The notes under the pieces are model-generated. The model did not search any database. It saw only the letters and a program-made list of their open reading frames with translations, and had not been told where the DNA came from. From the NCBI GenBank assembly GCA_902518965.1, contig CABYIQ010000003.1:1-64000 (forward strand): 64,000 nucleotides of DNA. The letters are read 5' to 3'. Positions 58,540-61,226 of this stretch are shown here, piece by piece. Position 1 is the stretch's first letter, and every line of letters begins with the position of its first letter. Source of the DNA: an uncultured SAR116 cluster alpha proteobacterium. Its GTDB lineage: Bacteria > Pseudomonadota > Alphaproteobacteria > Puniceispirillales > Puniceispirillaceae. A program made the translations under genes and the position numbers.

Positions 58540-59226
58540 ATGTTTAGCTTAGATTATTTAGTTCATGCTGGTGCGTTGTTATTTCTCATGGGATTTATAG
58601 TTCGAGATCAGCTTTTACTTCGTGGTTTTATCGTAATAGGCACTATATTTTACGTCATTTACTATCTGCTCCTGCCAGAGCCCTTATGGTCCGCACTTTC
58701 GTGGAATAGCCTTTTCATAATCATCAATTGTGTAATGATGTTTTTAATTTATTCAGATCGAGCCAAATTCTCAATGACCAAAGAAGAAGAACAACTTTAC
58801 GGGTCATTCTACACCCTTTCTCCTGGCGAATTCAGAAAGCTTATGAAGATAGCAACTTGGTTCGATGCAGAAAAAGAGGAAACAATTACTACTTGTGGAG
58901 AAGTGCCCGATAAAATGTTTTTCATCCTTGAGGGCACTGCATCAATAAACAGGGGGAAAAAATCATTTAAAGTGGGCCCAGGGGTTTTCATTGGCGAATT
59001 AGCATTTTTAACGAAGAACCCTGCGACTGCTAATGTGTGCTTAAACAAGCAAGCAAAGGGTGTAAGCTGGAATTCTTCGGATTTAACAAGGTTATTGGCA
59101 ACACGACCACAAATGAAAGTCGCCTTTGACTCTTTGCTTAATAATGATTTAGCCTCTAAACTGAGTAACGACTCAAATAACTCAGGAGGTCGAAATGAAG
59201 CGTCTAGGAGCCGTCTTGCTAGCTGA
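58540..59226 (+). CDS. Popeye-domain-type membrane protein with cyclic-nucleotide-binding fold
   Basis: This encodes a 228-residue protein. Three hydrophobic helices (about 8-22, 27-45 and 52-71) are followed by a soluble domain with the cyclic-nucleotide-binding fold (about 90-210). The topology and order match the Popeye (POPDC) family, known in animals as cAMP-binding membrane proteins and also present in bacteria. The pocket motif GVFIGELAFL is present, but the Arg that binds the phosphate in CRP-type domains is replaced (NPATANV), as in Popeye proteins. AAGGA precedes ATG 58540. The last 32 bases overlap the cyclase gene. It likely senses the nucleotide made by that cyclase. Confidence 0.82.
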   Translation: MFSLDYLVHAGALLFLMGFIVRDQLLLRGFIVIGTIFYVIYYLLLPEPLWSALSWNSLFIIINCVMMFLIYSDRAKFSMTKEEEQLYGSFYTLSPGEFRKLMKIATWFDAEKEETITTCGEVPDKMFFILEGTASINRGKKSFKVGPGVFIGELAFLTKNPATANVCLNKQAKGVSWNSSDLTRLLATRPQMKVAFDSLLNNDLASKLSNDSNNSGGRNEASRSRLAS

Positions 59227-60076
59227 TGTAGCTGGTTACTCGAAAATGATGAGTTATGATGAACCTGGAACCCTACAAAAAATCAAACAATTTTCTGAGC
59301 AAATACTTCGCCCTTTGCTTGAAAAATATAAGGGGAAGCTAATTAAGGGCTTGGGTGATGGCTGGCTCCTTGAATTTAATAGCGCCTCCGAGTGTGTAGA
59401 ATTTGGACAGCATGTCCAAAGAGCTTTGAACGAAAACAAATTTTTTAATCTTCGCATTGGAATTCATGTTGGAGATGTTGAACATACGGAAAATGATATA
59501 TTCGGTGATGCAGTAAATATTGCGGCACGCTTGGAATCAGTGGCCGAAATCGGACAACTGGCTATCTCGTCATCTACTTATATTTGTCTTGACCAAAGCA
59601 TCGCAAAATCTTTTAAAAATTGTGGTTCACATCAACTTAAAAATATATCAACCCCTATCGAAATTTGGAGTACTGGCGGCATTAACCTGAGCTCAAAAGG
59701 ATTAAACGCGAGCGCCAGAGACAGTTCAAAAAAATATGTTTGCGTTGTGCCGTTTGACAACCCTGGCGGCGATGCAGGCCACTACGCGAAAGAACTTACA
59801 GCTCGGCTTGAGGTTGATCTGAATGCTAAAGATTGGATAAATAGTATTGTTCAATCAACGCCCATACCTGAAGATTTTGTTGTTACAGGGCGAATTGACG
59901 TGAGCGGCTCTAACGCGGTGACCGACCTTCAACTTAATGCGCCGGGGGGCAAAAATCTTTGGTCTTACAGAATGGCTGCTAATATGAGCAATATATCAGC
60001 GCTCGCAACATCTATGTCTGCTCAAATGTCAAATCAAATTCTGATGGAAATTATGAAAGTAAGGGGAAAGTATTAA
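59195..60076 (+). CDS. class III nucleotidyl cyclase with TolB-like C-terminal region
   Basis: This encodes a 293-residue protein. Residues 1-165 form the cyclase domain: metal Asp11 (LLADVAGYSKM) and Asp55 (KGLGDGWLLEF), base-binding candidates Lys51 and Asp105 (FGDAVN), and Asn108 and Arg112 in NIAARLE for the transition state. Residues 183-280 (VCVVPFDNPGGD onward) resemble the TolB-N-like segment that follows the cyclase domain in many alphaproteobacterial cyclases, but the usual TPR repeats are absent. No membrane helix is seen. AGGAGG lies six bases before ATG 59195, inside the Popeye-type gene. The active-site set fits adenylate cyclase. Confidence 0.9.
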   Translation: MKRLGAVLLADVAGYSKMMSYDEPGTLQKIKQFSEQILRPLLEKYKGKLIKGLGDGWLLEFNSASECVEFGQHVQRALNENKFFNLRIGIHVGDVEHTENDIFGDAVNIAARLESVAEIGQLAISSSTYICLDQSIAKSFKNCGSHQLKNISTPIEIWSTGGINLSSKGLNASARDSSKKYVCVVPFDNPGGDAGHYAKELTARLEVDLNAKDWINSIVQSTPIPEDFVVTGRIDVSGSNAVTDLQLNAPGGKNLWSYRMAANMSNISALATSMSAQMSNQILMEIMKVRGKY

Positions 60077-60134: not shown

Positions 60135-60533
60135 TCATTGGGCCTTTACCGGAACGCTACCTAATTCGTCGATGTTGAATTTTATGAGGTAAAGTCTTTT
60201 GAAATCACGGTTAAAAAATATGTTTGCCTGACCAGCTTCTTTTTCGCCGTATCTCCAAATAGCACATTTGTAAAAAAAACCATCTTTTCCACAAGTTTGC
60301 TTACTTGAATCATCAGGTTTCCCCAATATTTCCAATACATCTTGAGATACCAACCCAACTTGCAGTTTTCGTAATTGCATATCATTAAAACGCAATTCAA
60401 CTATATCTTCTTCGCTAGCCGTCTCATCTGCATTTGTTGGCTCTGATGAGAACTTGCCAATATTAAGCTCTGCAAATTCTGTTGCACATGCAGAAAGCAT
60501 AAAGAAAGTTGATAAGATTAAAATAAATTTCAT
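60135..60533 (-). CDS. lipoprotein with BamE/SmpA-like domain
   Basis: This encodes a 132-residue predicted lipoprotein. The signal MKFILILSTFFMLSAC gives lipid-carrying Cys16. The domain LRKLQVGLVSQDVLEILGKPD resembles the start of BamE/SmpA-OmlA folds, a two-layer sandwich often found in outer-membrane lipoproteins. Two more cysteines (TCGKDGFFYKC) may form a disulfide. The frame is open to 60569, but the lipobox fixes ATG 60533. It lies 45 bases downstream of the lysozyme lipoprotein gene on the same strand. Confidence 0.78.
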   Translation of the reverse strand: MKFILILSTFFMLSACATEFAELNIGKFSSEPTNADETASEEDIVELRFNDMQLRKLQVGLVSQDVLEILGKPDDSSKQTCGKDGFFYKCAIWRYGEKEAGQANIFFNRDFKRLYLIKFNIDELGSVPVKAQ

Positions 60534-60578
60534 AATGTTAAAACTCTGTTTCAAAGCACTTTGTGCCAAACGGCAATT

Positions 60579-61226
60579 CTATAACCCTCGCAAAAGTTGA
60601 TTCATTAGCAGGGCTCTTTTCGGAGTGATATTATACCAATATGTCTTAAACTTATGGCCTCTAGAATTCACATTTAATATCATTTCATCTGCAGCTTTTT
60701 TAAATAAGCTTTCTCTCTTCATTCCTTTAGATACTGCCGCTTCTTTGACGTAACCAATAAATCGAGGCCAATTTTTTGATTTATTTGGACTTATTGCTAA
60801 AACATTCTCTACGCCAAGTTGAAAAGCCATTGAGATTAAAGCTAGTTTTCTACCACCTTCGATTGTTTCCCAACCCTCGATCTCTCTTTCCATTTTTTTG
60901 ATCAGTTTATCAACCTTTATTTTCAATACCGCGTTGGCTTCCTCTTCTTTGACATTCTCAACGTTCTCTATCAATGCGAGCTCTTCAGGAGTTAAATGTG
61001 CTATAGCAAAACCATATCCAACGGATCGACCATTTCCATCTTGATAAGGAATGGATTCCATGCCTTCCAAGTCGACCAAAATTTCAAAGGCCTTCAATGG
61101 AACATCCATTTTTGGCGGGGCGAGCTCTACCTGTTTTGTATTCAATGCATCTGCTGTTACAACTGGCTTTTCATCAACCTTTGTACAGGCGCTGAATAAC
61201 ATTACTAATAAAAATAAATAACGCAT
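60579..61226 (-). CDS. T4-type lysozyme (GH24) lipoprotein
   Basis: This encodes a 215-residue predicted lipoprotein: the signal MRYLFLLVMLFSAC gives Cys14, then a linker to about 45. Residues 45-215 match the T4/phage lysozyme fold: Glu54 in DLEGMES and Asp63 in PYQDGNG with the T4 spacing of nine, then a Ser-Val-Gly in place of Thr-Ile-Gly. GRKLALISMAFQLGVENV and YWYNITPKRALLM correspond to the conserved helices near the C-terminus of T4 lysozyme. It should cleave peptidoglycan while anchored in a membrane. No phage genes are nearby. Confidence 0.85.
   Translation of the reverse strand: MRYLFLLVMLFSACTKVDEKPVVTADALNTKQVELAPPKMDVPLKAFEILVDLEGMESIPYQDGNGRSVGYGFAIAHLTPEELALIENVENVKEEEANAVLKIKVDKLIKKMEREIEGWETIEGGRKLALISMAFQLGVENVLAISPNKSKNWPRFIGYVKEAAVSKGMKRESLFKKAADEMILNVNSRGHKFKTYWYNITPKRALLMNQLLRGL

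Follow-up and report, generated by a model that had tools for sequence, protein, structure and literature searches.

A Popeye-type membrane protein gene overlapping a predicted class III adenylyl cyclase gene in a SAR116-cluster alphaproteobacterium

Introduction

Animal POPDC1-3/BVES proteins consist of three membrane helices followed by a cytoplasmic cyclic-nucleotide-binding domain (CNBD) that lacks the phosphate-binding arginine; they bind cAMP at about 118 nM via DSPE and FQVT motifs, neither of which contains an arginine, and the DSPE motif has been described as invariant (PMC6562197). These proteins are cAMP effectors acting on TREK-1, and POPDC1 binds the adenylyl cyclase AC9 via its membrane and Popeye parts in a cAMP-independent manner (PMC9724675), while BVES inhibits ADCY9 (PMC10063672); a functional link to the class III adenylyl cyclase AC9 is thereby known in mammals. 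Reviews of the family place it in animals and protozoa and single out CRP as its closest match in bacteria (PMC4918794, PMC6952887); the 2019 POPDC review stated that no POPDC structure existed. No description of bacterial Popeye proteins was found among the open-access papers retrieved; earlier reports may exist.

Two other described systems resemble the locus analyzed here. Pycsar combines a class III cyclase (PycC) with a CNBD receptor, PycTM or PycTIR, which is possibly membrane-bound. The soluble TolB/TPR class III cyclases, represented by a SAR116 paralogue (L042) and by the solved relative 3mr7, have a catalytic domain with a TolB-like segment after it. The present analysis concerns a window of 64,000 nucleotides, this being the whole stretch of DNA analyzed, from the genome of an uncultured SAR116-cluster alphaproteobacterium, in which a preliminary description had noticed a Popeye-like gene overlapping a cyclase gene.

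Gene layout and genomic context

The two open reading frames with a 32-base overlap that had been described are present on the forward strand of the window, with the following features:

58540..59226 (+), Popeye-type membrane protein with CNBD, 228 aa (PF04831 and PF00027 matches; conserved in the congeneric genomes G387, G388 and G389)
58549..58764 (+), three predicted membrane helices, residues 4-20, 24-44 and 55-75 (hydropathy; low-confidence model)
58870..59103 (+), cyclic-nucleotide-binding domain, residues 111-188 (PF00027)
58981..59037 (+), phosphate-binding cassette G-VFIGELAFLTKNPATANV, residues 148-166, with Gly-Glu kept and Arg replaced by Ala162 (aligned bacterial Popeye-like proteins compared with ordinary CNBDs)
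59184..59189 (+), AGGAGG ribosome-binding site of the cyclase, within the Popeye gene (sequence; kept in L023 and L024)
59195..59226 (+), 32-base overlap of the Popeye and cyclase genes (sequence; also in L022, not in L023)
59195..60076 (+), class III nucleotidyl cyclase, 293 aa, predicted adenylyl cyclase (PF00211, catalytic residues, 3mr7)
59708..60073 (+), TolB-like C-terminal tail of the cyclase, residues 172-293 (orthologue-tail profile against TPR cyclases)

The AGGAGG motif lies 5 bases upstream of the cyclase ATG, and the unit comprises only these two genes, the flanking genes being on the opposite strand. This arrangement points to a translationally coupled unit, presumably transcribed as one. 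A chance overlap of reading frames was ruled out, because both are conserved with low dN/dS. Downstream of the pair, two putative lipoproteins are encoded next to each other at 60135-61226 (-); one is small and weakly similar to BamE, and the other has a phage-lysozyme-like domain.

The source genome (1.94 Mb, 76% complete) has near-identical stretches in SAR116-cluster records and contains four further class III cyclases and five further CNBD matches. A second cyclic-nucleotide cluster was observed at G000:C8:54401-58105 of the same genome, where a small protein consisting of a CNBD alone is encoded within 4 kb together with two class III cyclases.

The Popeye-type protein

Profile searches with the deduced 228-residue protein returned the POPDC1-3 model PF04831 (E=4.7e-13, 49.9 bits, cut-off 28.1) together with the CNBD model PF00027 (E=1.9e-9, 37.8 bits). 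When the protein was divided, residues 1-105, comprising the membrane helices and the linker, matched PF04831 on their own (38.1 bits, above the cut-off of 28.1), whereas residues 106-228 matched PF00027 only; since the membrane half alone carries the Popeye signal and the CNBD half does not, a generic CNBD identity was ruled out. Fourteen control genomes yielded no PF04831 match above the cut-off. Hydropathy analysis revealed three hydrophobic stretches, which a low-confidence model resolves into helices at residues 4-20, 24-44 and 55-75, and the predicted topology would place them ahead of a cytoplasmic CNBD, in the Popeye order originally proposed. Besides the membrane part, the protein has no output domain.

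Judged from its sequence, the product is Popeye-type in the broad Pfam sense and not a POPDC orthologue, its probable homology to the animal proteins resting on the PF04831 model. It resembles POPDC1-3/BVES in its significant PF04831 match, the centre of which lies in the membrane helices and linker, and differs from them in that it has no DSPE or FQVT motif, retains the canonical Gly-Glu instead, lacks a long C-terminal tail and is encoded in an operon-like pair with a cyclase. Structure predictions of the Popeye and cyclase proteins had mean pLDDT values of 40.7 and 45.5, too low for a fold search. No Popeye entry was among the matches listed in the PDB searches, viral contigs, when scanned, yielded no relative, and plasmid records gave short CNBD-level matches only. 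The Popeye membrane part (L030, L149 and window positions 58540-58854) also gave weak, sub-cut-off matches to PF10688 (YgjV inner membrane protein), always to the last ~60 positions of that model, from which the membrane unit of Popeye proteins may possibly derive.

The nucleotide pocket

The pocket was compared in an alignment of 77 rows, representing 72 distinct bacterial Popeye-like proteins, with 22 ordinary CNBDs detected with the same profile. The phosphate arginine occurs in 19 of the 22 ordinary CNBDs and in none of the 72 distinct Popeye-like proteins, where the position is occupied by alanine, serine or threonine; the glycine and glutamate of the cassette are kept in 76/77 and 74/77 rows, respectively. 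The window protein reads FIGELAF at the position of DSPE and ATANV at that of FQVT, both motifs being absent. Loss of the arginine is therefore common to bacterial Popeye-like and animal POPDC proteins, whereas the animal motifs are not. On this alignment the missing arginine is a family-wide trait and not peculiar to the window protein. The absence of the arginine (Ala162 in its place) was correctly recognized in the preliminary description, but the special nucleotide selectivity drawn from it is unsupported, because the loss is family-wide and the arginine-less animal POPDC motifs bind cAMP (PMC6562197). The window protein may be regarded as a putative cAMP sensor or binder.

The cyclase

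The second gene product matches PF00211 (E=1.1e-13, 51.7 bits, cut-off 21.9), and its nearest solved chain is 3mr7 (E=1.6e-28). All class III catalytic residues are present, namely the metal-binding D11 and D55 and the transition-state residues N108 and R112, and K51 with D101 forms an adenylyl-type base-selecting pair, the positions being assigned by analogy with class III cyclases in general. The enzyme is a complete class III cyclase, as had been claimed, with the amendment that D105, listed earlier among its key residues, is not the classical base-selecting residue, a role that falls to K51 and D101. The short TolB-like tail is likewise supported, as a profile built from the tails of the orthologues finds the TolB-like segment in TPR cyclases with i-E values of 1.5e-9 to 6.7e-6. 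Longer relatives continue beyond this segment with further sequence containing TPR-like repeats; the window enzyme shares the catalytic domain of the L042/3mr7-type cyclases but ends after the TolB-like segment, lacks TPR repeats and, unlike them, has its gene coupled to one for a Popeye protein. By its sequence it is a soluble class III enzyme, most likely with cAMP as its product.

Occurrence of the pair within the genus and the order

The pair has a patchy distribution, being present in 4/8 genomes of the genus, the source included: the Popeye gene precedes the cyclase gene in three other congeners (G387, G388 and G389), both genes are absent from the other four, and every congener with the Popeye gene has the pair. 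Two of the three relatives share a collinear stretch of 11.5 kb with the window, at 94-96% identity. The 32-base overlap recurs at locus L022 and is replaced by a 19-base gap at L023, so gene order and ribosome-binding site are conserved and the overlap is not. Comparison with the sister genomes gave dN/dS values of 0.04-0.16 for the Popeye gene and at most 0.03 for the cyclase gene, which implies purifying selection on both. In G387 a single frameshift, which may be an assembly error or a real loss, interrupts the Popeye gene within a G/A run (L024:6395-6470), reading GGGGGGAAAA where the window has GGGGGAAAAAA; the G387 cyclase gene is intact and its protein identical.

Elsewhere in the order, G414 carries a 58%-identical Popeye protein split across two contig ends, neither of the available pieces adjoining a cyclase. 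Eight genomes of the order that have no Popeye match encode full-length orthologues of the cyclase (36-51% identity), and the lack of a Popeye neighbour beside the sister-genus orthologues was counted against a role of the Popeye protein as cyclase partner. The expected pairing in relatives thus holds for G387, G388 and G389, but the combination of this cyclase type with a Popeye gene was observed in a single SAR116 genus.

In seven of the eight genomes with an orthologue, a gene of the metallo-beta-lactamase fold adjoins it, as judged by sequence motif and, for two of them, by Pfam. The gene (GVRGSxPTP...GGNTSC motif, PF12706) was observed beside the orthologues at L208, L209, L210, L211, L213 and L214; against cyclic-nucleotide-degrading phosphodiesterases it reaches 43 bits (cut-off 400), and it is possibly the matching degrading enzyme. 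One of the eight genomes has a different membrane-CNBD protein two genes upstream of the cyclase, on the same strand.

Popeye relatives and CHASE2 cyclases beyond the order

Across the class, most Popeye relatives have no cyclase within several kb, and seven genomes contain a Popeye relative and no class III cyclase, so regulation of a cyclase cannot be the sole Popeye role. In family f23 of the same class, which we assume to be Rhodobacteraceae, Popeye relatives occur in 32/198 sampled genomes, and in four of these 32 (G799, G893, G949 and G953) the sole class III cyclase of the genome, which is of the CHASE2 type, is encoded no more than two genes away. The same neighbourhood was found in three genomes of another sample (G728, G699 and G674). 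The four f23 genomes compare with 0.22 expected (P about 9e-5, or about 2e-8 when restricted to genomes with one or two cyclases), in a test that was framed after the first cases had been seen and on genomes that are not all independent. G587 was left out of the paired genomes, its Popeye relative being encoded ~1.6 kb upstream of a cyclase of a different kind, a giant AAA/GAF protein. These observations suggest that distant bacterial Popeye relatives stand beside class III cyclases more often than by chance.

Among the f23 neighbours, only that of G893 exceeds the PF04831 cut-off, the others scoring 11.9-20.8 bits or nothing, and in the G953 neighbour Pfam recognizes a CNBD only. A tree of 73 Popeye-like proteins placed the window protein with that of G414, in a well-supported group holding most of the f23 neighbours, and needed at least five changes of the paired label. 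All seven CHASE2 systems resemble the window pair in that a class III cyclase adjoins a Popeye-related gene; they differ from it in that the cyclase carries its own CHASE2 sensor, and in their variable gene order, as the two genes may share a strand, lie tail to tail or be separated by a second membrane-CNBD gene. Such an intervening gene was observed at L091:6709-7884 (-), L093:5630-6583 (+) and L096:5839-6663 (+), and in these three-gene clusters it falls on a separate branch of the tree. In the L091 copy the membrane part scores 59.9 bits (cut-off 25) against NF047864, the model of the CBU_0592 membrane family, so this second gene may represent a parallel membrane-CNBD family. Two tandem same-strand Popeye-type genes, recalling the vertebrate POPDC1/POPDC2 pairing, were seen in G1051 (L150:8552-10468).

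Discussion

By analogy with POPDC1-AC9 and BVES-ADCY9, the most likely role of the window Popeye protein is that of a membrane-anchored partner which localises or feedback-regulates its own cyclase, a reading to which we assign a probability of slightly less than one half (about 0.48). The protein would be a membrane anchor with a cytoplasmic CNBD and an arginine-less Popeye-type pocket; it would hold the cyclase at the inner membrane and adjust its activity, probably by product feedback. In favour of this reading are the gene overlap with its internal ribosome-binding site, the Popeye-specific match of the membrane half, the joint presence or absence of the two genes in the congeners, purifying selection on both, the f23 neighbourhoods and the lack of a further output domain; against it are the many Popeye loci without a nearby cyclase, G414 among them, the seven genomes that have no class III cyclase, and the weak Popeye scores of most f23 neighbours. 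The nature of the product as cAMP, its binding by the pocket, the contact between the two proteins and the sign of the regulation are all presumptive components of this proposal.

The two-gene maker-and-sensor module of the preliminary description survives in part, in its Popeye similarity, complete cyclase and operon-like pairing. In the simple form of that idea, cAMP from the cyclase would be received by the Popeye protein as a separate membrane receptor, which would signal to another membrane target without touching the cyclase. The retained Gly-Glu of the CNBD fits such a receptor, as does the action of animal POPDC effectors on TREK-1 (PMC9724675), and Popeye relatives without a neighbouring cyclase could sense a general cAMP pool; nevertheless, no conserved target gene accompanies the pair, whose neighbours are on the other strand, and we consider this version rather unlikely. 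It is considerably less probable that the CNBD no longer binds nucleotide and persists as a degenerate scaffold, with no function beyond anchoring the cyclase constitutively in the membrane or acting as its protein-protein module: the phosphate arginine has indeed been lost in every relative examined, but a dead pocket need not keep Gly-Glu, the glutamate of which persists in 74/77 rows, and the animal motifs bind cAMP without an arginine (PMC6562197). Least likely is an anti-phage pair in which infection would trigger cyclic nucleotide synthesis and the membrane CNBD protein would act as a membrane-damaging effector, since, although the outline is that of Pycsar with a PycTM effector, a class III cyclase plus a membrane-CNBD receptor (PMC11224242), and the distribution in the genus is patchy (4/8), the PADLOC matches are weak (PycC, 18.7 bits for the cyclase; PycTIR, 21.6 bits, on the CNBD only), the PADLOC library, which may hold no PycTM model, returned no PycTM match, PycTIR keeps the phosphate arginine that Popeye proteins lack (PMC11224242), the K51/D101 pair is of the adenylyl type, and the genes evolve slowly within a collinear 11.5-kb stretch amid housekeeping-like genes.

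The excess of bacterial Popeye relatives beside class III cyclases suggests that the mammalian association of Popeye proteins with adenylyl cyclase could be of long standing and open to experiment in a simple system. A bolder proposal, tentative and on balance doubtful, is that the partnership with class III adenylyl cyclases is ancient and bacterial in origin, that Popeye proteins began as membrane regulators of adenylyl cyclases, and that the bacterial pocket, with the arginine lost and Gly-Glu kept, would be intermediate between ordinary CNBDs and animal POPDC. A small bacterial Popeye protein with its own cyclase would offer a tractable system for arginine-less cAMP binding by Popeye pockets, and such a pair would let one ask whether regulation of adenylyl cyclase was the original Popeye function, a question of relevance to POPDC1-AC9 in heart rhythm and muscular dystrophy.
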